Positions 1 through 25,561 of a stretch of DNA of 25,929 nt are shown here, piece after piece. The stretch covers positions 1 through 25,929 of the IMG/VR virus record IMGVR_UViG_3300009606_001525. The stretch is one strand, 5' to 3'. Position 1 is the first letter of the stretch; every line of letters starts with the position of its first letter. Source of the stretch: a virus. Both the position numbers and the translations under genes were made by a program. The notes under the pieces were generated by a model. It was not told the DNA's origin. It made no database searches and was given only the letters and a program-made list of their open reading frames with translations.

Positions 1-535
1 GCTGCAGAGGCGGTTGCTGCATTTGCAGTACCTTGAGCTGTTGCTGCACTACTTGTTGCTGCATTTGCAGTACCTTGAGCTGTAACTATTGACCCTGTTA
101 TTGCAGTTACTGCTCCGTCTGCGTAAGTCTGCAGTGAACTTGTTGCTGTATTTAAAGCTGCTGCTGCTGTATTTTCTGCAGCTGTTTGAGCAGCTGATGC
201 AGATAGTGATGCAGTTGTTGCTACGTTTCCTATAGATGTTACTAATGATCCGGTTGCGGTTTCTAGTGCCGATTGGGCAGTTGCTTCTGCTGCTGATTGT
301 GCTGCACTTGCAGATAGTGATGCAGTAGTTGCTACGTTACCTATTGATGTTATTAGAGACCCGGTTGCTGTAGTTAATGCTCCTTGTGCAGTTGCTTCTG
401 CTGCTGTTTGAGCTGCTGATGCACTTACGGATGCTTCTATTGATGCACTAGCTGCTGCTTCTGCTGCTGCTGATGCACTGGCAAATGCTGCTAGGAATAG
501 GTCTGCTGAGGATGATTGTTCTGCTTCTAGTTCTG
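1..535 (-). repeat. Tandem repeats coding Ala/Ser/Thr-rich segment of giant fibre
   Basis: Within the fibre gene, a nearly exact 29-base unit (gttgctgcatttgcagtacc and onward) occurs at 13-41 and again at 55-83, a 42-base (14-residue) period coding ATAQGTANAA. A longer 111-base (37-residue) unit beginning near 201 and again near 312 encodes two copies of a stretch containing ATGSL.TSIGNVATTASLSA. The coding frame is kept throughout. The composition suggests an extended or coiled shaft rather than a globular domain. Confidence 0.75.
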
Positions 536-3500
536 ACTGTGATGCAAAATCGTTAGGGTTTGTTACATTTATTTCTCCACTAATTGTTAGATTGGTTCCA
601 TCCCATACTAAACTATCTCCTAATGAAAATTTACTACCAGAGTCTAAGTAGAACCCTGTGTTTGAGTTGCCATGTGTTCCGGTACCTGTAAATAGTTTAT
701 CATCTGCTATAGATATACCTCCTATTTCTCCTGCTCTAGCTGTAACTGTTCCATCTACCGATAGTTCTTGTCCGTCCCAAGACATACCGCTTGAACCGCT
801 ACCTGTTAAGTAGAATTCTCCTGATGCTGATAGATATGCGTTCCAAGCGCTACCGCTGTAGTACCCTAAGTTATTAGCATTTAAGAATAAACCTTGACCA
901 GAAGGAGTTGGGTTAAATGTAATTTTACCATCTGCATCTACTGATCGAGCTGATGCTGTAGCTGCTGTTTGTTGTGCTAGTGCTGCTTCGATTGATGCAG
1001 TTGTTGCTGTTGATGTAGCGTTATTGATAGAGCTTGTAAGAGATGAAGATACGTTAGCGGCAGCGGCAGAACCGCTTAATACGGCATCTGCAGAAGCTTC
1101 CTCAACTGAAGAAGTTGTTGCTGCGTTTCCTCCTACTATGTTTATATCTCCTGCTATTGTAAGTGAACCACCGTCCCATTTTAAATAGTTGCTATCACTC
1201 CCTGTTAAGAAGAAGTTACCGTTATCAGCCATGTATGTTTGCCACTCACTTGATGAGTAGAATCCTAATGCTGAGTCTCCTAAGTATAGACCTGCTGATG
1301 ATGGATTTGGGGTAGATACTATCTTACCTGTACTATCTGTAAATGTATCAAGAGCTATAGATTCTGATGTATCCGTTATTAGCTGTGATTGGTCATAAGT
1401 AGAGTCAGAAGCTGTAATCCATTCTGATCCGCTGAATATATATAACCTCTCTCCATCGTTATCATCGATCCACATATCACCTTGATGTCTATCTGTTACC
1501 GATGGGGCATCATTTTGTCTGAATATAGAGTTTAATCCAGCTTGTACTAATTGAAATGCTACGTTGGTTTGTGCTTGAGTAGCGAATGATGCAGATGTAT
1601 CTACTGCTGATTGTGATATATCTGTAGCGATAGAACCTGAGATTGTATCAGAGTATGTTTGTGAGTCGCTATATGATTGAGAGTAAGCAGTCTCTGCTGC
1701 TGCTGATCCGCTAAGTACTGCATTTTCTGCTGATGCGGATGCGAATGCTTCGGCTGCTGTTTGAGCGTTACTAACGTCTGTAGATGTTGCGGCATTTCCT
1801 CCAGTAATATTAATAGAACCTTGTATACTTAACTGACCTCCGTCCCATGCAAGGAAGTTACCATCACTTCCAGTTAAGTAGAAGTTACCGTTATTAGCCA
1901 TATATGTTCTCCACTCACTAGCTGAATAGAATCCTAATGCTGAATCTCCTAGGTATAGACCTGCTGATGATGTAGATGGTGTACCTACTAATTTACCTGT
2001 ATCATCTGTAAATATATCTACTGCTACAGAAGAAGATAAAGATGCAGATGTGTTATTAATAAGCACTGTTTGATCATAAGTACCATCTGGTGTTGCTGCC
2101 CAAGCGGATGCGTTCCAAACATATACCTTATTTCCGTCGTTAGAATCAATCCACATATCCCCAACTGTTCTATTTGAGGTGGAAGGCGGATCGTTTTGTC
2201 TAAATATTGCTGTTTTGCCGTCTATTAAATTGTTAGCAGAATCTAAACCATCTTGAAGAGTAGCTGTAGAAGAACTTATTGAAGCTGATAATGCTGCGTT
2301 TGAGGCAGATACACCGGTTGCTATTGAACCAGATACTGTGTCAATGCTACCTGTTACGTAGTCTTGAGTTGCTGCATTTCCTGATGTGATGTTTATCTCT
2401 CCAGCTATCTCTAATGTACCGGTTGATGAATCCCATGCGAGTTTATTACCTTCAGAACCTGTTAAGAAGAAATCTCCTTGGTTGTCCATATAGGTTTTCC
2501 ATTCTCCATCTTTGTAGAACCCTAAGTTCGTAGAAGCTAAATACAACCCCTCTGTTGATGCTGTTGGTGGTCTTACTGCTCTACCTGCACTATCTGTAAA
2601 GATTTTTCCATCTAAGGTGTTTGTAGTATTCTCTACTGATGCTGAGTACGCTGCGTCTGAAGCTGAGATTTCTGTTCCAAGAGAACCTGATAGTGAGCTG
2701 GTTGCTGCATTTAGTTCTGCAGTGTTTACACCACTACCTCCGGTTATATCTATATTACCTTTTATATTGAGTGTTGTTCCATCCCAGTATATGTAATTTG
2801 CTCCTGTTGTACCTGTTCCTACCCTAAACTTACCGTTACCATCTAAGTATACTCCTGTCCCAGTAGTACTTGTCATGCTGCCGGCATTCGCACCTGCTGC
2901 TAAGGTTCCGTTATTTAATGAACTTGAAATTATAAAAGTAGAAGTATCTAAAGCAAATGTTTCAGTATTAATAACTAAATTACCATCTGTAAAATTATCT
3001 AATGATATGAAGTTACTAGCGCCTCCTACTTTCCAACCTCCGTCTGTATACCAATAGTTATTGTTATTAATGTATATACCATCGTTATTGCCTGATACAT
3101 CTCTACCTATAGATACTTTTTGACCAGTTTCTAAGCCTCCAACTACTGTAGCTACATGAAGTATACCTGCAATAGACCCTGTTTGTGCTGTAATAGCTCC
3201 TCTGAAGAATCCATTTTCTGTATATAAACCAAATCCTGGTTCGTTATTTCCGTACAGGTACCCTGATGATAATCCGGATAAGTCTCCTAGTCTAGATCTT
3301 AACTGTAAATCGTATACACCTGATCCTGTTCTTTCTACTATATCCATATAAGGAGTAGAAATATCTCTAGGATTAGCGTTCATTAATATGTAACCCGAGG
3401 ATATATCTTCTTCGGGATTATACACCCCTGTTGATAGTATTACCTGACCTTCAGTATATGTTTTTGCAGTAGAAACTAATCCAGCTAAAAATTCTTTATC

Positions 3501-5654
3501 GGTATCAATTAAGAACAACGTATCTCCCGTTGTATGAGACTGTGCTTCTGTATCGTGGTACCCTCTTATAACAGTCAATACAGAACTGTCAATTGCTGTG
3601 ATTTTTAACCTTTCATCATCAATTTTAATAATATCCTGAGGGGTAAGTCCTGTTGATGAATTTACATTTATAGTAGTAACCGATGTTGTTGGTATATCGC
3701 TTGTTAAAGTAGATACTGATGAAGAGATAGCAACTATGCCTCCAAATTCTCTCTCTACATATATTTCACCTGCTAATCCGTCAGGATCAATAGAACCTGT
3801 ATTATAAGATAAGCTGGAATCCTCTGAGTATCTTTTAGAACCAGAGACATATAAATACTCTACGCTAAATCCGGTGTCGTCTACAGATTTTACTTTCAGT
3901 ATTTCACCTTCTTTAAACCCTGATACGTTAGCTAAAGATAAAGTAACTGCATTAGCTGCATAAGAAGATGAACCGGCAATAATATTTCCATCAGCATCTC
4001 TCAATGCTTCTATAGTTGAAGCATTTGTAACCATTAGTTGTCCACCAACTACGTTGACTGTTTCTTTTTCAAATACAGTGGTTTTCAAAGTACCACGTAT
4101 TCTCATATTTTCAAATTCAGCGGAACCGTTACCTAATGTATCAATTCTCCATCCTTTTAAGTTTGTAGCAAAATTAGAAGATTCCAATCTTCCTGAGGAG
4201 TGTATTACTAACCCTACTTCGTCTTCTGCGTAAGTACCTCCAAATCCTGCAGTAGGTACTGTTCTAATTTGTGAATCGGTTACTTCCCATCCTCCAATTT
4301 TATTGCCTTGCTGACCAAACATTGCAATAGTATTAGCACTTCCAGTGCCAGTACCATCAAATATTTTAATCCCATATAGATCATCTGCTGCATCAGATAT
4401 TTCTCCTAATCTTATTATTTCTGCTGAAGAAGTATCAAATATGTTTAATCTTTGAGTAGATGTATCAATATCAAAATAAGTTGTGTCTAACTTAAAAGTA
4501 TCGGTCTTAATATCAACACCACTTGTTGTATTGAACCTAACGTAGTTACCAGCATCTTTAGTAAGATCCAATGTAGGTACATTACTATCCATACCTATTA
4601 TTACACCAGCATCGTCGGTATCAAAGCCTGTTTTTGCGCCTGCTACAATCATTGCATCTGTAGCACTTCCTGATATTTTAAATTTGTTTGTTACACCTAC
4701 TTCTATTGCTGAGGATGCTCCTAACAGTTTAACACTTCCTCCACCTAAAGACATTGATGCCTCTGTTGATGAAATCTCTATATTAGATGCTGATATTTCT
4801 AGAAGTGCTGTTGATAAACTTACATTGTTACCGTCAAACTTTACAAAACTTCCTGTTGCATCTCCGACGTAGAATCTAGGTGATCCGTCATTGTATTCTA
4901 ACTGTATACCTTTATTCCCAAATGTAGAATCGTTAATTGAAATACTTTCATTTGTAGCATCAAGAACTATATGAGTTGATTTTTTAATTTGTGAATTACT
5001 GATTGTCCATCCTGCTACTGTACCTCCTGAGAATAAAACTGCTGAACCTGTAATGTCTCCGTTTCCTTTTACGTTAAAGTTAGAAGAAGATATGAAGTAC
5101 CCAGTGCTACTAGCTGAACCTGAAATATAGAAGGAAGGTATACCTAAAGTGGTAGGACCGTGAATTGAATCTGGTGTTATACTGAAGCCACCGATTAATC
5201 CAGATGATGCGGTTATGTCCCCTTCTAGTACTGCACCTGATGCATATAGGTACCCGCTAGATGAGATTGCAAAGTTAGGACCGAAGTGAACGTAGTAGGG
5301 TGCTGAAGCAGCAGGATCAAAATCAATATACCATTCGTCAGATGATAATGTACCACCGTCAGAATTCATTGCTTTTGTTTTATCGTAAAATTGACCTTGG
5401 AATAGATCAACTATCATCCTGCTTCCAGTTATCTGGCTATCTGCAATATACACATCACCAATAGATCCACCATTTGCTTGGAAATCAGCGAATGCTTCTC
5501 CCCCTATTGGAACGTTTACCGTTACTCCGTCTTTCCTTTGTAGTGATAAATTATTTTCACTAAAAGATGCGGTGAAGAAAAACGATCTAAAATTTGCATC
5601 TACTTCCTCATGAGTTAGAGGAGCATTCTTTTCATCTCTTAAAGTTATTGCCAT
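1..5654 (-). CDS. Giant tail fibre / adhesin, N-terminal part (runs off left edge)
   Basis: Open without a stop from an ATG at 5654 to the window edge, giving at least 1884 codons; frame was checked at several points along its length. It begins MAITLRDEKNAPLTHEEVDANF, a module shared with the start of the gp12-like fibre, so it probably attaches to the same kind of virion site. The body is a long series of beta-rich, Ser/Gly/Thr-rich segments with many SGS or TGS steps. From about residue 930 on, a module containing GLYL, GFY, W.tYM, YLTGSdgN and WDG is repeated several times, twice with a FRQND...GDMWID segment between copies. Beyond about residue 1700 it becomes Ala/Ser/Thr-rich with short tandem repeats. 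Probably a long receptor-binding or side fibre. The true C-terminus lies outside the window. A candidate late promoter sits 12 bases before the start codon. Confidence 0.85.
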   Translation of the reverse strand, partial: MAITLRDEKNAPLTHEEVDANFRSFFFTASFSENNLSLQRKDGVTVNVPIGGEAFADFQANGGSIGDVYIADSQITGSRMIVDLFQGQFYDKTKAMNSDGGTLSSDEWYIDFDPAASAPYYVHFGPNFAISSSGYLYASGAVLEGDITASSGLIGGFSITPDSIHGPTTLGIPSFYISGSASSTGYFISSSNFNVKGNGDITGSAVLFSGGTVAGWTISNSQIKKSTHIVLDATNESISINDSTFGNKGIQLEYNDGSPRFYVGDATGSFVKFDGNNVSLSTALLEISASNIEISSTEASMSLGGGSVKLLGASSAIEVGVTNKFKISGSATDAMIVAGAKTGFDTDDAGVIIGMDSNVPTLDLTKDAGNYVRFNTTSGVDIKTDTFKLDTTYFDIDTSTQRLNIFDTSSAEIIRLGEISDAADDLYGIKIFDGTGTGSANTIAMFGQQGNKIGGWEVTDSQIRTVPTAGFGGTYAEDEVGLVIHSSGRLESSNFATNLKGWRIDTLGNGSAEFENMRIRGTLKTTVFEKETVNVVGGQLMVTNASTIEALRDADGNIIAGSSSYAANAVTLSLANVSGFKEGEILKVKSVDDTGFSVEYLYVSGSKRYSEDSSLSYNTGSIDPDGLAGEIYVEREFGGIVAISSSVSTLTSDIPTTSVTTINVNSSTGLTPQDIIKIDDERLKITAIDSSVLTVIRGYHDTEAQSHTTGDTLFLIDTDKEFLAGLVSTAKTYTEGQVILSTGVYNPEEDISSGYILMNANPRDISTPYMDIVERTGSGVYDLQLRSRLGDLSGLSSGYLYGNNEPGFGLYTENGFFRGAITAQTGSIAGILHVATVVGGLETGQKVSIGRDVSGNNDGIYINNNNYWYTDGGWKVGGASNFISLDNFTDGNLVINTETFALDTSTFIISSSLNNGTLAAGANAGSMTSTTGTGVYLDGNGKFRVGTGTTGANYIYWDGTTLNIKGNIDITGGSGVNTAELNAATSSLSGSLGTEISASDAAYSASVENTTNTLDGKIFTDSAGRAVRPPTASTEGLYLASTNLGFYKDGEWKTYMDNQGDFFLTGSEGNKLAWDSSTGTLEIAGEINITSGNAATQDYVTGSIDTVSGSIATGVSASNAALSASISSSTATLQDGLDSANNLIDGKTAIFRQNDPPSTSNRTVGDMWIDSNDGNKVYVWNASAWAATPDGTYDQTVLINNTSASLSSSVAVDIFTDDTGKLVGTPSTSSAGLYLGDSALGFYSASEWRTYMANNGNFYLTGSDGNFLAWDGGQLSIQGSINITGGNAATSTDVSNAQTAAEAFASASAENAVLSGSAAAETAYSQSYSDSQTYSDTISGSIATDISQSAVDTSASFATQAQTNVAFQLVQAGLNSIFRQNDAPSVTDRHQGDMWIDDNDGERLYIFSGSEWITASDSTYDQSQLITDTSESIALDTFTDSTGKIVSTPNPSSAGLYLGDSALGFYSSSEWQTYMADNGNFFLTGSDSNYLKWDGGSLTIAGDINIVGGNAATTSSVEEASADAVLSGSAAAANVSSSLTSSINNATSTATTASIEAALAQQTAATASARSVDADGKITFNPTPSGQGLFLNANNLGYYSGSAWNAYLSASGEFYLTGSGSSGMSWDGQELSVDGTVTARAGEIGGISIADDKLFTGTGTHGNSNTGFYLDSGSKFSLGDSLVWDGTNLTISGEINVTNPNDFASQSELEAEQSSSADLFLAAFASASAAAEAAASASIEASVSASAAQTAAEATAQGALTTATGSLITSIGNVATTASLSASAAQSAAEATAQSALETATGSLVTSIGNVATTASLSASAAQTAAENTAAAALNTATSSLQTYADGAVTAITGSIVTAQGTANAATSSAATAQGTANAATASA
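1127..2210 (-). repeat. Duplicated fibre module, about 670-bp period
   Basis: Two closely similar copies lie at about 1127-1560 and 1796-2210, starting 669 bases (223 residues) apart. Both encode GLYLGDSALGFYS.SEW, then NGNF.LTGSD and WDGG, and, on the right side of each copy, FRQND...GDMWID. They differ by a few codons in length and by scattered, largely conservative changes. More diverged relatives lie at about 2380-2600 and 770-960. The similarity suggests fairly recent internal duplication. Confidence 0.75.
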
Positions 5655-5691: not shown

Positions 5692-7329
5692 TTATTCGCC
5701 CGTATACATTATATAAGCTAAAGCGTAGAATCGAGGAACGTGGGATGTTGAAGGTATATTATGATCGTGACCTAAACCATTCCCTTGAGTTAGGGTAGTA
5801 CCACCTCTCCAATACACATATTTATTATCTCCATCTGAGTCTCCGCTTCCTTTGTATTTTGTTCCTCCTAGGTAGTCTACTCCCCCTATTGCTCCTCCTG
5901 CACCTACACCGGGATTATTAATTTCTATATAATATGAATCCTTATACTGGTGGTTGTGCGATGGCATTTGCGCAGATGTTAAAGTATGTGCTTCAGTAGA
6001 ACCAAAATGATCATGGTTAGAACTACCTCCTGTAGATACAGCGCTTCCTGATATTGTAGAAGTAGGTGTTCCTGTTGTATTATTTGAACCTACTATAAAT
6101 CTATTTCTTAAATCTGGTGTTGTTATGGAATTGTGAGTCTCTCCGTTACATAGTTTCCAACCTGTTGGAAGTGATTGGACTGCTCCTGACCACATTATAA
6201 TTCCTCCTTGTGGTATAGGAGCTGCATTAACTTGTTTTGCTATGTTACCATTTGCTTCTCTTACTAAATAGTTATAGTTTGAGGCTGAAGTTGCATTAGC
6301 AACTGTATTTAAAGTAACTGAACCTGAAAGTGTTGTTGACCCGCTTACGTTTAAAGTAGCGTTAGTGGTTATAGAGCCGGTGATTACGGCATTTCCTCCC
6401 ATGTTTAAGCCGTTCGAACCAGATATACTTCCTACCACTGCTAATTGATATCCATTAGGCCCATTAGATGTACCAATTCCAACTTTTCCGTCTGCTGAGA
6501 AGTTAGCTACTAATCTATCATATGTAGGTTCGTTACTAGATGTCGGAGGTGCTGATATTATAGCAAAGGCTTCATTACCGGTAATAGACTGTATTCCCAT
6601 TATTACATGAGCAGATTGAGGACCTTCTAATATTATACCTCTCTCATTACCTATCAATAAATTGTTACTGACGCTTTCAATTCTTGGGTTTGCTGAATCC
6701 CATGTGAATAGTTTTGATTTATAAGTATCTTCGTGTGTTTTACCGAATATAATACTACCGCTTATTACAAAATCTCCTAAAGAATTAGAAGCTCCTTTAT
6801 GTGTAATACTTCCATCTCCTTTAACTCGTAATGCTTCTGCTCCATTTGTAAAGAATATTATATCTGCATTATTATCTTCATGCCAATTCCTTACTGTTAA
6901 ATCTTTAGTAGTACCACCGTAGCTAAAGCTAGCTGATGCTGCTGATTGGGCAATCACTAAAGAACTGTCATCAAGTATTACATTTCCACCTTCTACTCTA
7001 AGTTTTTCTCCAGTCTCTAATGAAGAAGTACCGATTGCTACTCCGTTTTTCGCTGCATCATAAATCAATCCAGATGCTCCTGCAAAATTAGTTCCATCTA
7101 GGTTGTACTGAAATTCATTTACATTTCCTGCAACTTGTGATGAACCTGTGTATGTATTAAGTGTTATGTTTGTAGCACCTGCAGATTTTAAATTACTACC
7201 TGTATAGTGCAGTGATAGTTGTTTTCCGTCAGAAGAGACAGATGCAGAATAGAAATACTCATGAAAATTTATGTCTAATTCTTCATAAGATAAAGCTGTT
7301 CCTTTGTTAGTTCTTAAAGTTATTGCCAT
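5692..7329 (-). CDS. Short tail fibre with phage collar domain (T4 gp12-like)
   Basis: A 545-residue protein close in length to T4 gp12 (527). It starts with MAITLRTNKGTALSYEELDINF, the module also seen at the start of the giant fibre. The middle is made of SGS-rich beta repeats. From about residue 365 it has a phage tail collar domain: PQGGIIMWSG, LPTGWKLCNG and TPDLRNRFIVG are clear signatures. Three HxH motifs follow: HDH near 438, HNH near 457 and HDH near 521. In T4 gp12, HxH motifs from the three chains hold a zinc ion in the fibre tip, so a similar metal-bound trimeric tip is likely. The ATG lies just after the stop of the preceding gene, with no Shine-Dalgarno sequence. The probable role is irreversible attachment to the host surface; the receptor is unknown. 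Confidence 0.85.
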   Translation of the reverse strand: MAITLRTNKGTALSYEELDINFHEYFYSASVSSDGKQLSLHYTGSNLKSAGATNITLNTYTGSSQVAGNVNEFQYNLDGTNFAGASGLIYDAAKNGVAIGTSSLETGEKLRVEGGNVILDDSSLVIAQSAASASFSYGGTTKDLTVRNWHEDNNADIIFFTNGAEALRVKGDGSITHKGASNSLGDFVISGSIIFGKTHEDTYKSKLFTWDSANPRIESVSNNLLIGNERGIILEGPQSAHVIMGIQSITGNEAFAIISAPPTSSNEPTYDRLVANFSADGKVGIGTSNGPNGYQLAVVGSISGSNGLNMGGNAVITGSITTNATLNVSGSTTLSGSVTLNTVANATSASNYNYLVREANGNIAKQVNAAPIPQGGIIMWSGAVQSLPTGWKLCNGETHNSITTPDLRNRFIVGSNNTTGTPTSTISGSAVSTGGSSNHDHFGSTEAHTLTSAQMPSHNHQYKDSYYIEINNPGVGAGGAIGGVDYLGGTKYKGSGDSDGDNKYVYWRGGTTLTQGNGLGHDHNIPSTSHVPRFYALAYIMYTGE

Positions 7330-11852: not shown

Positions 11853-14800
11853 TTACAATATACCTTTCGTGTTATGTGATAGTATTCCATTAGATATGTA
11901 TGTTTTTGCAAATTCGACTGTAAGTTTAATTACATCGCCAGCTTCGTATTCTTCTGTTTTTATATAAGGCATCCCTGTAAGTATATCTCCGTCTTTTAGT
12001 TGATCTGCATCTACATATTGAGATCTACTATCAACGTAAAACCTATGTCGAGGTGATACTACAATTTCTTCATCTCCTATAAATACCTTTATCCGTTTAC
12101 TTGTAATTACCTTCTTTTCAGATACCCTAGCATTTATCCATTCTAGCGAGCTTTCTTGCTGTGTTCTTATTTCATCTCCAACATCTACTATTCTTGCTAG
12201 TTTTTCAGACCCATCGCTCATTAATATTTTAACAAAAGGTGCAACACATCCTCCTCCGCCACCACCGCCACCGCTAGATGGTGCTGATTGGTATATAGAA
12301 AAATTATCAACAGAATTACCTCCAATGTTTAAATACAAAATTGCCCATCTACCTGAACTAGTATTGTTCTGTTGTATACTAATAGGTACAGAACTATCAT
12401 TACCGGTTCCGCTACTTTGACCGAGGCTAACATGATAATGTGATTCTGATATTCCCCAGGATGTTCCTGGTGCTACATCGCGTACTCTTAGGTAAACTGT
12501 TTGTGCGGCAGATGTAATAGTCATTGAATTAATGTAGTTTGCATGATCTAATATACCTGTTACATTATTATAGGAAACAGTATCTGTTACAGATGCTCCT
12601 GGATTGCCTGCTGTGTCGTATAAGATTGCTGTTACAGTTAATGTTCCTGATTGTAAGTTGTGATTGAACTCTGATATTGAAATATCTTTAGTAGGGGAAT
12701 CATTTAAAGTGTTAGAAAACGCACTATTAGCTGTGTATGTAGTTCCGCCACCTGTAGACGATATACTTATAGAAGCACTACCTGCTTCACCGTTGGCTAT
12801 ACCAGCTATTCTTACATAAAAATATCCGTTCGTATATTGACTTGCTGCTGTGTTGAATAAAGCGTTTGATTTAAAGTCCACACTGTACCCTGTTGGGGCT
12901 ACAATATCTTTTAGGCTAGCTGTTAAGCTATTTGAAGTTGCTCCAGCGGTATAGATAGTAGCCGGTAATCCCACATTACCTGCTTGATCTACTAATTTCA
13001 CATTCAGTAGTACATTTGCTCCGTCTGCTATATCTGTTGTATTCATTGCAACACTCATAGTAGAGTGGTATATAGTCCCAGTGCTATAGGCTACTTCAGA
13101 TGAATCACTCTCTAGTGAAGCTGTTGCTTGATATGTTTCACCGAAATTTCCTCCTACTATAGTGAAAGGTACTGCTGTATAATTGGTTGAATTAATGTAT
13201 TTAGTGTTCCATACAGCTTTATAACCAGAAGGAGCAGTGTTATCGAAATCACTACAAGGTACAATTTCTCCTACATAGCCGGCGTTTCCACCTGCTGAAC
13301 CTGATATTCTAGCGGTAGTACTATTACCTAATTTATACCACTTATCTCCGGTAGAACCTACAAAGGTTGAAGTTCCAGCAATATCTGTAAAAACATATGA
13401 CCCTATGGTTGCAGGGTAACTTCCTGTGTCATTGTGGTATAATGTGTCATTAGTTGTAGAGGAAAGCCCACATGAAGCAGTTGACGTATTAGAAGGTGCA
13501 TCTTTATCTAACAAAAATGAAGTATATACAGCAGAAGAACCTTCGTCTATCTTTACTATATCGTAATTCAAAGCCGGTACATTTACCTGTTTGAATTTAT
13601 TCAATCTATTTAGTTCTCCGTCTGTTACCTCTATCACACTTCCACTGAGTTCACCGTTAATTTTTGGTGATTCATCATCTACTGGTTTTTGAGTTGATCC
13701 TTGTAGGGTGTTGAGAGTTTCTGTATAAGTTGTTGTTTTAAAGTTTGATGGTAGTGTGTCATATGCTCCTCCGTCAGATCCGGTAGTTTCAACCATATCT
13801 ATACTAGCGCTATATTCTGGTCTAGTACCTGAAAGTTTAGGTGATTTTACCTTAGAGCGATTTAAAACGTGAGGTTTAATAATTATACCTGTATCTAAGG
13901 TAGCTGTTGCAGGAACAAAGTCCTTTATCATTTTAAACAGCACATTATCGTAGAATTTAAGTATCCTTATGAAATCGTTAAGTTCTGTTTTTTCTACTGA
14001 GTTATGTAGTACTCGGTGAGCTTCTTTCATTAAATCAAAATACTGACTTTCTGTTTCCTCTCTTGGATCTCCAATATAGTCGTCTATATTGAAAGTGCTT
14101 GGGAGTTGCTCGAATATGTACTTATTAATACTTGTAGCTGGTGAAAAACCGACTTCTAGTCTATGAATATCAGGCGTTCTAGAGGATTCTGATTTTTGAA
14201 TGGAAGTGCTCTTTGTTAAAACTCTACCTGCAGATCCACTTGCTCTTGTTTCTACTCTTACTTTATCTACTCTTAGATCTGTTCCATTTTGAGAATCAGG
14301 TGTTATAGACCCGTCTACCCCGAAGAATTTTTCAGAACCTATTACATTTCCTCCATATTCGTTAACAGAAAGAAATTCAGATGGTATACCGAAACAGTTG
14401 ATAAGCGCTCTTAGTCCTCTTTCGGTACCTTTTGTTTTAAGTAGGTAAGGAAGGTTATGATATATTCTCTTATATAATTCACCTTCGTATTCTTTTCTAG
14501 CTATAGGTTGTAAATCTGTCTGAATGCCTGGTACTTGTGTAAAAGTATTCACTACTTCTCCGCTGCTTCCGCTATCATATGTATCAGCTACTAAGTACTT
14601 AAATAAATCGTTTGCTCCTTCTTTAGAGTTATAGAGTTTAGTACCAAATGAACTAAGTACCTCTCTAACTAAATCTTTAGATATACCTACATTAAGTCTA
14701 TTATCGTTATTATATTTATCGGTAATAGCTTTTGTATATACCCATAAATTATCAAAATGCTGTCCGATCATATTAACAAAAAGAGCAGCATTACTGTTAT

Positions 14801-16049
14801 TACTATCTTCTGCTATATAAGAAGGCAGTGTATTGGTTAGTACGTCGTAATTAGAGGTGTCGTAATTAGAAGCACTTATTAGTTGATTAGCGTACCAGGA
14901 TATTGAATCGGAAGATGTTGTGTGTAAGTTAACATATGGTTTAGTAGAGTTCGATTTTGGCCAGCAATTCGATCCGCTATTAAAGTATAAGTCTTTCTCG
15001 TAGTGATCAAAATTCTCTACTACTCCATTTATCAACCTATCAAAGTGTGCTACACTGCCTGAGTTATTAGCAGAATTAGTTATTGCGTTTTTACTGCTAT
15101 CGTATGTTTGCAGTAATTCAACTTTATATTTAAAGTTTTTTAGCCTTTCTTGGGCAGAAGAAAAATGTATAAAGTTTTCATAGTCTGAGTAGTCTATATT
15201 TACTTTAACGCTTTTATCTTTAATGTATGAGTAAATTTCTCTATTTGTATTAGCATTTGAATAACTAAACAACTCATCGTAATTAAGGTACTCTGTTGGT
15301 GTTGGGTTGTTATTATCTAACTCTATGTCAAAATTTGCTCCTCTTAGTTTAGGATTAGTATCTGGTTCATCTTCTATTTCTACCTGTACCTCTACTACTA
15401 TTGAATCACTAACCTTTTCAACTAATTGAACTTGATGTTTTATGTCAAAAGTTTTAGGAAGAGGTTCGTACAACTTTAAAGCTACTGTGTATTTATCTTC
15501 TAATTCATATACGTCTACATTAGTTACAATATATAAATCATTATCCCCCAAATTTAACCAGTACTCATCAAAGTAAGACTTACTATTGATATTTGCTTTT
15601 AACTGTTCTGTTTTAGTAATTAATGTATTTACATCAATATCATCAGTGTACAAAAGTACTTCTTTTCTATCTTGAGATATTGTGTTTATGAAAAGAGGTT
15701 GCTTACTATCTGTTTGAGAGTAGAGATCGTTTAGAAAATGATAAACTATTTTATGATCTACTCCGGTAAAGCCGTTATCTATAGAAAGCTGTTCGGGTTT
15801 TAAATCTAGGTTTGTTACATTTCCCTCTGCGTCTATCTCTACATTAGTTGTTGGCTCGTGATTATATAAAGAAAATATCTTCTTATTATTTAGAGAATAA
15901 AAGTGCGTTTCAATATAATGACGGTCTGCTCTGAAGTTTTTATTGACTTGATAGTTATCTATTAAATTGATATCACTTTGAGAAAAGTTTTCATTTTCCG
16001 GTATTGAATCATAGTCTCTATCTAGTAAGGTATATGTTACTTTTGCCAT
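11853..16049 (-). CDS. Large tail/baseplate protein with Ig-like, BACON-like and C-terminal Hint domains
   Basis: A 1398-residue protein. Residues 1 to about 800 look like a phage structural core. Near 523-568, YKRIYHNLPYLLKTKGTERG followed by LRALINCFGIPSEF recalls tail proteins of the P2 gpI type. About 850-930 is a small Cys-flanked module (LYHNDTGSYPATIGSYVF). About 935-1025 and 1045-1160 are two Ig-like repeats ending in DQAGNVG and DTAGNPG. About 1167-1257 is BACON-like (SWGIS, HVSLGQSSGTG, GRWAILYLNIGG, FSIYQSA). Then come eight glycines (1260-1267) and a Hint domain (1268-1393) with five residues after it. The gene starts 13 bases after the previous stop, with AAGGGATAAG upstream as a possible weak ribosome site. 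Its position after gp6 and two structural genes suggests a baseplate or fibre-hub part whose C-terminal half projects outward. The Bacteroidota-type domains may bind host glycan, which is inference. Confidence 0.8.
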   Translation of the reverse strand: MAKVTYTLLDRDYDSIPENENFSQSDINLIDNYQVNKNFRADRHYIETHFYSLNNKKIFSLYNHEPTTNVEIDAEGNVTNLDLKPEQLSIDNGFTGVDHKIVYHFLNDLYSQTDSKQPLFINTISQDRKEVLLYTDDIDVNTLITKTEQLKANINSKSYFDEYWLNLGDNDLYIVTNVDVYELEDKYTVALKLYEPLPKTFDIKHQVQLVEKVSDSIVVEVQVEIEDEPDTNPKLRGANFDIELDNNNPTPTEYLNYDELFSYSNANTNREIYSYIKDKSVKVNIDYSDYENFIHFSSAQERLKNFKYKVELLQTYDSSKNAITNSANNSGSVAHFDRLINGVVENFDHYEKDLYFNSGSNCWPKSNSTKPYVNLHTTSSDSISWYANQLISASNYDTSNYDVLTNTLPSYIAEDSNNSNAALFVNMIGQHFDNLWVYTKAITDKYNNDNRLNVGISKDLVREVLSSFGTKLYNSKEGANDLFKYLVADTYDSGSSGEVVNTFTQVPGIQTDLQPIARKEYEGELYKRIYHNLPYLLKTKGTERGLRALINCFGIPSEFLSVNEYGGNVIGSEKFFGVDGSITPDSQNGTDLRVDKVRVETRASGSAGRVLTKSTSIQKSESSRTPDIHRLEVGFSPATSINKYIFEQLPSTFNIDDYIGDPREETESQYFDLMKEAHRVLHNSVEKTELNDFIRILKFYDNVLFKMIKDFVPATATLDTGIIIKPHVLNRSKVKSPKLSGTRPEYSASIDMVETTGSDGGAYDTLPSNFKTTTYTETLNTLQGSTQKPVDDESPKINGELSGSVIEVTDGELNRLNKFKQVNVPALNYDIVKIDEGSSAVYTSFLLDKDAPSNTSTASCGLSSTTNDTLYHNDTGSYPATIGSYVFTDIAGTSTFVGSTGDKWYKLGNSTTARISGSAGGNAGYVGEIVPCSDFDNTAPSGYKAVWNTKYINSTNYTAVPFTIVGGNFGETYQATASLESDSSEVAYSTGTIYHSTMSVAMNTTDIADGANVLLNVKLVDQAGNVGLPATIYTAGATSNSLTASLKDIVAPTGYSVDFKSNALFNTAASQYTNGYFYVRIAGIANGEAGSASISISSTGGGTTYTANSAFSNTLNDSPTKDISISEFNHNLQSGTLTVTAILYDTAGNPGASVTDTVSYNNVTGILDHANYINSMTITSAAQTVYLRVRDVAPGTSWGISESHYHVSLGQSSGTGNDSSVPISIQQNNTSSGRWAILYLNIGGNSVDNFSIYQSAPSSGGGGGGGGCVAPFVKILMSDGSEKLARIVDVGDEIRTQQESSLEWINARVSEKKVITSKRIKVFIGDEEIVVSPRHRFYVDSRSQYVDADQLKDGDILTGMPYIKTEEYEAGDVIKLTVEFAKTYISNGILSHNTKGIL
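11871..12248 (-). other. Intein-like Hint (autoprocessing) domain
   Basis: Residues 1268-1393 of the 1398-residue tail protein. The N-terminal splicing block starts with Cys1268 (CVAPFVKILMSDG, then VDVGDEI). A TxxH-type motif is present as SPRH with His1335. The C-terminal block is YISNGILSHN with His1392 and Asn1393, followed by Thr1394. All residues needed for an N-S acyl shift and Asn cyclisation appear to be present. At 126 residues it is mini-intein sized, with no room for a homing endonuclease. It follows an eight-glycine run and leaves only TKGIL behind it. It could be a bacterial intein-like domain, a mini-intein or another Hint type; activity cannot be judged from sequence alone. 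Confidence 0.85.
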
Positions 16050-18221: not shown

Positions 18222-20033
18222 TTATAATGTTGTTACTCTTCCCTGAATATCATTATTAGGGTATTTAACTTCGAATATCATAGGATCTAATGAAGGGTAA
18301 ACTATGTTACTCATAGTAGCTCCTTTGATATCATAATCAAAAGTAGAATATACTCCTCCTACTTTACTTTCTATTTTTATATCTTGTACTGTTTGAACTC
18401 CTTTTACTCTATCTAGGAGAGTATACATAGAGGATATATTTATAGGTTGGTTAATAGACCATTTATCTATGTTAAAATGATCTGTTAGTACCTGTGTACA
18501 CTGTAGTATTACCTCTCTAGAGTTATAGCTAGGTAAGGTAATAATGTCAAACTTTACTCCAATGTTTATTACAAAAGCATCTTTGATAGTACATCCATCA
18601 GTTAGTGATTTAAATTGTCCTATGTATTTCTTTAAGTTATCTTTTAATTGAGATGTTGCCTGAATTAAGTGTTTGTTGTTATCGTACGCTAAAACATACA
18701 AACATACTCCTAATGGGTTATATACGTTAGAATCACTGGTTGTTATATCTGCATCTGTAGTAACTGATGTCTTAGCAATTGAACCTAACGTAGACGGTAG
18801 AGTCATAGCTCTAAAAGCATAATCTTGTTTAGTTACTATTCTTCCCTGTTCACTAAAAGCTCTTAGAGAATTCTGTCTTATTTCTTCAACTGTATCTTTA
18901 TCCCTTCCGCCCATTGCTGTTTCTGGGTTAGAAACTGTAAGTGTTGATTGATAGTTTGTATCTGTAGCAGTAATAGAGGATGCTGATATACCTGTTAATG
19001 TGTTTGCTTCTATATTCGATGATATTCCACCGCCTTTTATATACCTAACAGTTAAGGTAGTATTAGAAGGAGAGTTTCCGTAAGCAGATGAAAATAAGAA
19101 ATTAGAAGGGTCATAGGCGTAATCTGCTCTTCTTATACCGACGCCTTGAACTCCTGAACCTACATTTTCTGGGTTTGGTAAGAATACATCGTCATCAGAG
19201 GTAGACATCCCAGAGCCAAATTGTATTTGTAATTTTCCTGTTGAGTTAAATCTAGTAACATAACGGTTAGGTACTTTTGTTGCGGAGAGTAGGTAGGGGA
19301 CTTGATCTTTATTATCTCCATTGTTTATTGCTTCAGTGAATACTGTGTCTTGACCTAAGTAAGGTACTTCGCTCCAAAGGTTATTATCACTGTCCTTTAT
19401 ATCTAATATTCCTATTATCTCTGTATCGTCTATACTTAATGTTAAGAATTTAGAAGCTGCTCCAATTGAAAATGTCTTTGTTACTACTTCTCCTGCTGTT
19501 GCATTAACTGTTTTAGTTAGTTCGTACTCTGTAGGGTTACCGCTGGAGTCAATACTATAGATGGTGGTAAGAGTGTCGTCGTATGAACTAGAAAAAGAAA
19601 AGTCTACACCTTTATCTAGTATAAAATTCTGATTGCCTGAAGTTACACTACTATTTGATCCAATTACGAGAGCTTGGTCAAAATTTGGGGTATAGTTAGA
19701 GTTTGCTGCTGTTGCTGCAACTCTCTGTGTAAGGTTTACTTTTACTTTCGCTGATGTTGTTAATCTAGGTTTATATCCCATCATATAAGCCATAGAGTAT
19801 AGATTGCCTGGGTCTTGAGCGTACTGTAAGAATGTTTCTTGTAGTTGACTATCCTGGTAAAAGGAAAGTATATCTCCTACATACGCAGACATTTCCATGA
19901 ACATCATACCTGGTGAGGTAGGTGAAAAGTCGTTATAGGTGTCAGGGAAGTAGTTTTTTGCTAATTCTACTAACTGTCCTCTCAGATTAGAGAAGTTTTT
20001 GTCTGTGTATTTAATTTTTATATCTTGAGCCAT
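18222..20033 (-). CDS. 6: Baseplate wedge protein gp6-like (baseplate J family)
   Basis: A 603-residue protein comparable with T4 gp6 (660). The N-terminus (FSNLRGQLVELAKNYFPDTY, SPGMMFMEMSAYVGDILSFY) is typical of gp6/baseplate J-like proteins. The middle holds a TVEEIRQNSLRAFSEQGRIV segment with a following TKQDY, the hallmark of the J-like fold. The C-terminal third (GCTIKDAFVINIGVKFDI, VKGVQTVQDIKIES) also fits. Gp6 dimers form the continuous ring of the T4 baseplate wedges and help drive sheath contraction. The start ATG overlaps the stop of the gp25 gene by one base, as expected for a fixed stoichiometric pair of wedge proteins. Confidence 0.9.
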   Translation of the reverse strand: MAQDIKIKYTDKNFSNLRGQLVELAKNYFPDTYNDFSPTSPGMMFMEMSAYVGDILSFYQDSQLQETFLQYAQDPGNLYSMAYMMGYKPRLTTSAKVKVNLTQRVAATAANSNYTPNFDQALVIGSNSSVTSGNQNFILDKGVDFSFSSSYDDTLTTIYSIDSSGNPTEYELTKTVNATAGEVVTKTFSIGAASKFLTLSIDDTEIIGILDIKDSDNNLWSEVPYLGQDTVFTEAINNGDNKDQVPYLLSATKVPNRYVTRFNSTGKLQIQFGSGMSTSDDDVFLPNPENVGSGVQGVGIRRADYAYDPSNFLFSSAYGNSPSNTTLTVRYIKGGGISSNIEANTLTGISASSITATDTNYQSTLTVSNPETAMGGRDKDTVEEIRQNSLRAFSEQGRIVTKQDYAFRAMTLPSTLGSIAKTSVTTDADITTSDSNVYNPLGVCLYVLAYDNNKHLIQATSQLKDNLKKYIGQFKSLTDGCTIKDAFVINIGVKFDIITLPSYNSREVILQCTQVLTDHFNIDKWSINQPINISSMYTLLDRVKGVQTVQDIKIESKVGGVYSTFDYDIKGATMSNIVYPSLDPMIFEVKYPNNDIQGRVTTL

Positions 20034-25189: not shown

Positions 25190-25561
25190 TTAATGAAAAA
25201 AGTGCTTTTTATTTAAATTTACCCATTTAGCCTGGGATCTATAGGTTGTAAAGTACACTTTTACGTCGGCAAGTGACCTATATTGAGTGTAAAATACCTT
25301 TTTATCACTTTGACTCACATACTTAGTGTAGAACCATATACCTTTATTACCTTTTGCTTGACTCCTATAGTTAGTTTTATATACAATTACATCTGCTTGT
25401 GATCTATACTCTGTTTCAAACACCAATACCTCAGCTTGGGATTTATAATCAACTACAGATATTTGTTGGGCGGATAGGTAGAAGGGGGTGAGGGTGAGGA
25501 ATATACCGTAGGCCGCCGCGCGAAACGCGCGCAAGTTGCCGCGAAGATTTATATCTAACAT
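25190..25561 (-). CDS. Exported YxSQAD-repeat protein (DUF6150-like)
   Basis: A 123-residue protein. Residues 1-33 look like a Sec signal peptide: basic NLRGNLRAFRAAAYG, hydrophobic IFLTLTPFYLSA, then QQ, with probable cleavage after the Ala. The rest is about six short repeats of the form Y.SQAD..V..T (YKSQAEVLVFE, YRSQADVIVYK, YRSQAKGNKG, YVSQSDKKVFY, YRSLADVKVYF, YRSQAKW). This is the pattern of DUF6150 proteins, which I associate with Bacteroidota and some phages; family function is unknown. Its ATG overlaps the upstream gene by 7 bases. The signal-peptide coding region includes an unusually G+C-rich stretch and a perfect hairpin at 25517-25531. Possible roles are envelope modification or exclusion of other phages, which is inference only. 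Confidence 0.75.
   Translation of the reverse strand: MLDINLRGNLRAFRAAAYGIFLTLTPFYLSAQQISVVDYKSQAEVLVFETEYRSQADVIVYKTNYRSQAKGNKGIWFYTKYVSQSDKKVFYTQYRSLADVKVYFTTYRSQAKWVNLNKKHFFH
25517..25531 (-). repeat. G+C-only perfect hairpin inside signal-peptide codons
   Basis: CGCGCG, AAA, CGCGCG: a perfect 6-bp inverted repeat with a 3-base loop, embedded in a roughly 35-base G+C-rich island (25511-25543) in otherwise A+T-rich DNA. It encodes the basic RAFRAA part of the signal peptide and falls about 10 codons after the start of the exported-protein gene, where a stable mRNA stem could slow translation. Confidence 0.6.

Follow-up and report, generated by a model that had tools for sequence, protein, structure and literature searches.

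The C-terminal end of a tail or baseplate-associated protein encoded by a virus record of 25,929 bases (the window, i.e. the whole stretch of DNA analysed) carries a Hint domain between a glycine linker and a five-residue tail. Judged on its sequence, its modelled structure and its likeness to known systems, this end has about an even chance of being a self-removing cassette of the A-type BIL kind on a tail adhesin, with a lysine of the short tail (Lys1395) as the amine that would most likely resolve the reaction. Sequence comparisons indicate that C-terminal Hints, often preceded by a Gly run, constitute a widespread cassette closing many unrelated phage tail adhesins. The BIL-like Hint family is already known; the new elements are its widespread phage-tail setting and the conserved lysine of the tail. 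A first-pass annotation of this DNA, the overall interpretation of which is partly supported by the results described here, missed both the near-obligatory lysine and how widely the cassette occurs.

The cassette and its host protein

The host protein (1398 aa; 11853..16049, minus strand) was delimited from its open reading frame and translation, and was linked to the tail by the homologues of its N-terminal part and its gene neighbourhood, with a Baseplate_J-like gene (18222-20033) on one side of the ORF (16049-11853, minus strand) and tail-fibre/collar genes (5692-7329) on the other. A conserved N-terminus of about 770 aa is followed by an Ig-like region, a BACON-like domain, the Gly8 linker, the Hint domain and the sequence TKGIL. 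Single-protein, PHROGs and NCBIfam searches with the whole ORF returned little, and no solved relative was found for the N-terminal part, the homologues of which are gp109 of Flavobacterium phage immuto and proteins of Microcystis phage Mel-JY01 and LR756508. The Hint is absent from the ends of these three homologues, which makes the cassette an add-on at the variable end. The BACON-like β-sandwich domain (residues 1171-1256; 12282..12539, minus strand) was modelled by AlphaFold2 (AF2) with a pLDDT of about 80, and its top Foldseek match is 3zmr, a Bacteroides ovatus GH5 xyloglucanase, the N-terminal domain of which is a BACON domain. This domain evolves rapidly, with 30-55% identity to its kin.

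The C-terminal sequence reads APSS-GGGGGGGG-C1268VAPFVKILMSDG...VVSPRH1335RFYV...TYISNGILSH1392N1393-T1394K1395GIL-stop, and every residue singled out by the first-pass annotation (Cys1268, His1335, His1392-Asn1393, Thr1394, the Gly8 run and the five-residue end) is present in the translation. All of these elements lie on the minus strand. The Gly8 linker (residues 1260-1267; 12249..12272), which ends in the presumed scissile acyl donor Gly1267, is encoded by mixed codons (GGT GGC GGT GGT GGC GGA GGA GGA) and is therefore no homopolymer artefact. The Hint domain (126 residues, 1268-1393; 11871..12248), defined by motifs, HMMs, AF2, Foldseek and dN/dS, begins with Cys1268 (codon 12246-12248), contains the block-B His1335 in an SPRH motif (12045-12047) and ends with His1392-Asn1393 (11871-11876); no endonuclease insertion was found within these 126 residues. 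The C-terminal tail, T-K-G-I-L (residues 1394-1398; 11856..11870), has Lys1395, the proposed acyl acceptor, at position +2 (11865-11867).

The HMM search of intein and BIL families and the structural comparison with Hint folds proposed in the first-pass annotation both bear out the assignment. The window protein scores 21.5 bits against TIGR01443, the intein C-terminal splicing region (cut-off 15.6), whereas its match to PF14890 (E 1e-5) is below the gathering score and that to the Pretoxin Hint family PF07591 (PT-HINT; E 8e-4) is weak and below the cut-off. An AF2 model built from 46 diverse phage Hints predicts the Hint fold with confidence (pLDDT 93, pTM 0.86), superseding a 10-sequence model that lacked the depth needed for the Hint (pLDDT 24-61 in that region). 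Foldseek aligned this model with inteins, BILs and Hedgehog at query-normalised TM values of 0.72-0.89; the closest solved structure is Tetrahymena BUBL1 BIL2 (E 8e-11, TM 0.88), followed by the Ssp DnaB intein, the Clostridium thermocellum BIL and other inteins, with Hedgehog (1at0) lower. A sequence profile search concurs (BIL2, 6e-23; C. thermocellum BIL, 7e-20). The predicted horseshoe β fold, the nucleophilic Cys1268 and the block-B His1335 are those of the Hint superfamily, and the C-terminal His-Asn, the variable host protein and the lack of a conserved +1 nucleophile in the kin are those of A-type BILs, the window copy itself having Thr at this position.

Nine loci from viral contigs encode the same protein with the same C-terminal end. 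Cys1, the block-B His-Arg-Phe-Tyr, SHN and Lys+2 are invariant in these relatives and the window protein, in which the tails are 5-14 residues long. The Hint has 63-78% identity to its kin with a dN/dS of 0.12-0.22, values that point to strong purifying selection, unlike the fast evolution of the adjoining BACON-like domain, and that indicate a functional rather than a decaying cassette. The claim of an intact Hint with thioester-forming residues is thus upheld. The Gly8 run emphasised in the first-pass annotation is not conserved: the linker is G8, GTGSG, G5 or G4 in the kin, with only Gly -1 and Gly -3 constant, and this variation in length, together with the frequent lack of a run in Hints retrieved without a Gly condition, led us to reject it as a conserved signal. 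Thr1394 is indeed in place in the window protein, but position +1 is occupied by T, V, N or A among the kin, ruling out a conserved nucleophile at this position, whereas Lys1395 at +2 never varies.

Several known systems resemble the phage Hint in part. A-type BILs, such as that of C. thermocellum (PDB 2lwy; fold TM 0.85), share its Cys1, block-B His and C-terminal His-Asn, lack a conserved +1 Cys/Ser/Thr and occur in variable host proteins; the phage cassette differs in being located at the extreme C-terminus of adhesins, often after a Gly run, with a tail of 1-30 residues that almost always contains lysine. BUBL1 BIL2 (PDB 6y75, 6tmm), the best structural match, also has the His-Arg-Phe-Tyr block-B motif, but the ciliate domain is flanked by ubiquitin-like domains, whereas the acceptor side in the phage is a short tail and its activity is a prediction. 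Class 1 inteins (e.g. Ssp DnaB, gp41-1) have the same splicing-domain fold and motifs; the phage Hint has no endonuclease, lies outside conserved enzymes and has no conserved +1 nucleophile. The Hedgehog autoprocessing domain (PDB 1at0; fold TM 0.80) is likewise a C-terminal Hint that releases its protein through a thioester, but it lacks the terminal His-Asn and transfers its protein to cholesterol; the window protein has His-Asn, with TKGIL alone, and no sterol-recognition region, after the Hint. The Pretoxin Hint of polymorphic toxins is followed by a toxin domain, rather than by five residues.

Spread of the cassette and lysine in the tail

The survey of Gly-run and Hint ends in phage tail proteins suggested in the first-pass annotation was productive. 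The pattern Gly3-Cys-x8-M-x-D-G gave at least 120 matches in viral contigs, the majority being Hints that close their proteins. A second pattern, with no Gly condition, retrieved 58 distinct Hints, of which 23 are C-terminal and 31 internal, the other 4 being truncated at a contig end; a Gly-rich linker precedes 9/23 C-terminal versus 1/31 internal Hints (Fisher P 0.001). The hosts that could be assigned to families are central tail fibre J, tail fibres, tail proteins, or carriers of BACON, Ig, Fn3, PASTA or List_Bact repeats. Among the tail genes of the isolate phage NCTB are two full cassettes and a single stand-alone Hint, annotated with no more than the label 'intein domain', and each of two 45-kb kin contigs encodes three Hints, in the homologue of the 1398-aa protein, a 3.2-kaa spike and a 235-aa protein. 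Few C-terminal short-tail Hints were recovered from a scan of bacterial genomes, in which other contexts predominate. Literature searches on phage tail Hint cassettes returned only ordinary inteins in phage enzymes, and no paper treating the cassettes as a class was found.

The tails following His-Asn were compared with the ends of other ORFs from the same loci, matched for length. Lysine is present in 40/41 tails of a discovery set of non-redundant C-terminal phage Hints with His-Asn, against 19.7 expected (P 6e-13), these and the following lysine counts being based on simple motif rules and blast clusters rather than on a tree; arginine is not enriched (11 versus 14.9 expected) and a +1 Cys/Ser/Thr occurs in only 4/41. 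A validation set from other patterns, with tails including K, NK, GK, KIA and AKAI, has lysine in 13/13 (3.7 expected; P 8e-9), as do 6/7 further tails from another pattern (at most 20 residues, no Cys/Ser/Thr at +1). Lysine is found in 114/120 members overall and in 23/25 representatives of 40% single-linkage clusters (P 3e-9), at positions that vary between +1 and +14, without a set geometry. The tails without lysine (SP, ESDT, QLHQHDYN) are spread over three clusters. As controls, 66/68 enzyme-type inteins with long C-exteins have a +1 Cys/Ser/Thr, and K is present within the last nine residues of 18/39 Hints that have no His-Asn, close to background; lysine occupies +1 in 14/32 internal Hints with no Cys/Ser/Thr at this position. 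The length-matched controls, the lack of arginine enrichment and the Hints without His-Asn led us to reject background composition or general basicity as an explanation, and the clustering at 40% identity and the variable positions weaken the case for a single inherited trait. The requirement, specific to lysine, independent of position and confined to the His-Asn class, fits lysine as an acyl acceptor.

Other arrangements of Hints were observed along the way. Tandem arrays, with at least two Hints per phage protein and linkers of down to 2-4 residues (L144, L146, L151, L162, L184, L203), often have K or R at +1, and the lysine-free tails SP and ESDT apparently come from such arrays. The C-terminal Gly-run Hints also include a second class, with no His-Asn and a conserved end of its own, FTDYFELSEQ...NILNA (L020, L029, L041, L063, L071 and others); by analogy with Hedgehog, this class perhaps performs N-cleavage only. 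Large phage proteins of L143, L161, L180 and L190 have a Hint inserted at a GSKG site some 22 residues after their start, with Lys+1 and a Gly-rich run after the Hint in L143 and L161, where its end could be read. Bacterial loci L579, L587, L589 and L612 encode large proteins in which a GGG-Cys Hint leads to His-Asn-D/G-K-G, with Lys at +2, and a further 600-700 residues. Phage NCTB has a stand-alone 154-residue Hint-like protein without Cys1 (L135:3744-4205) adjoining two Hint-bearing tail proteins, and a tail-fibre-like protein of Achromobacter phage 2-1 (L136:5083-6525) has a CNCDCNCSC stretch ahead of a His-Asn-less Hint, with a radical SAM gene close by. In the window, a giant tail-spike protein (3..5654, minus strand) is truncated by the edge, its own C-terminus falling outside, and a kin homologue carries another Hint; in L677:1038-10535 and L678, this homologue has a Ser1-His-Asn-Thr Hint about 290 residues before its end, followed by a Peptidase_S74 chaperone. 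A small protein (25190-25561, minus strand) starts with a signal-like sequence and contains the motif YRSQA-D/K-x-x-V-Y in repeats of about 12 residues.

Candidate chemistries

A-type BILs keep His-Asn, have no +1 nucleophile and mainly cleave (PMC7765530, PMC7664689), and BIL2 forms an ATP-free isopeptide bond between the C-terminus of its N-flank and the ε-amine of a lysine (PMC8616854). For the window protein, the chemistry judged likeliest is N-terminal cleavage, or transfer of the acyl group, at Gly1267-Cys1268. In the preferred scheme, the Hint would fold and Cys1268 would take the Gly1267 carbonyl to form a thioester, an amine, most likely the side chain of Lys1395, would resolve this thioester, and cyclisation of Asn1393 would free the Hint. 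The mature tail protein would then end in Gly8-(N-ε)Lys-tail, a splicing-like excision via an isopeptide bond. We infer the activity itself, the role of lysine as nucleophile, the order in which the steps occur and a part in the maturation or assembly of the tail. The benefit to the phage would, at a guess, lie in a transient domain removed during tail assembly; what would be gained by attaching a tail of 1 to 14 residues through an isopeptide is not obvious, and the lysine may therefore have some other function. In a broader reading, somewhat less likely than the scheme for the window protein, lysine-acceptor Hints would be a widespread class in tailed phages, passing an adhesin thioester to a lysine side chain rather than to a +1 Cys/Ser/Thr and yielding isopeptide-linked tail proteins without ATP.

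The main rival is simple autocleavage, in which water would hydrolyse the thioester and Asn cyclisation would trim the tail, leaving a free Gly8 carboxylate and a discarded Hint, an outcome much like the loss of Peptidase_S74 chaperones from tail spikes. These chaperones are also self-removing C-terminal domains of phage tail proteins, of unrelated fold and chemistry, and the Hint ahead of one of them in a kin spike is compatible with this explanation, as are the intact Cys1, His and His-Asn and the mainly cleaving behaviour of A-type BILs lacking a +1 nucleophile (PMC7664689, PMC7765530). Autocleavage leaves unexplained the near-universal lysine in otherwise unconserved tails of 1-15 residues, and we consider it unlikely, at perhaps half the weight of a lysine-resolved reaction.

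Conjugation in trans, in which the Gly thioester would pass to a lysine of another virion protein, a neighbouring subunit or the host surface and so cross-link the adhesin, comes next and seems improbable. The closest fold, BIL2, joins its N-flank to lysines of other proteins, the cassettes are carried by tail tips and adhesins, and two or three Hints occur in the tail genes of kin phages and phage NCTB. However, the tail lysine is a nearer acceptor, in cis, and no candidate acceptor protein was identified. From the conserved His-Asn, moreover, the tail is expected to be set free, and cross-links between subunits that run through the tail would then be lost. Attachment to the host surface, as put forward in the first-pass annotation, is not supported by these results.

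An ordinary splicing mini-intein, with TKGIL spliced on through Thr1394, or a decaying parasitic remnant is more doubtful still. The Cys1...His-Asn-Thr arrangement fits a class 1 intein, intein HMMs match, and Thr+1 of the window protein could act as an ordinary splicing nucleophile; against this, position +1 is V, N or A in the kin, there is no endonuclease, the site is at the extreme C-terminus, and strong purifying selection opposes decay. The view of the first-pass annotation that this is unlikely to be a simple parasitic intein is supported, homing inteins differing on the same points. It is very unlikely that the Hint is retained on the virion as an inert structural or binding domain: adhesins often end in small β domains, and the activity is a prediction, but the catalytic residues are all invariant amid varying sequence and the lysine rule is confined to the His-Asn class.

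Meaning for tail adhesins

The lysine rule suggests a little-known way to remodel or covalently cap phage tail adhesins, and it makes isopeptide-forming Hint chemistry testable with one mutant. Lysine-acceptor Hints could yield new compact ligation tools. If active, C-terminal Hint cassettes would represent a step in tail-adhesin maturation that is common yet unrecognised, and if lysine is indeed the acceptor, splicing or conjugation through lysine would be a general chemistry of phage assembly.
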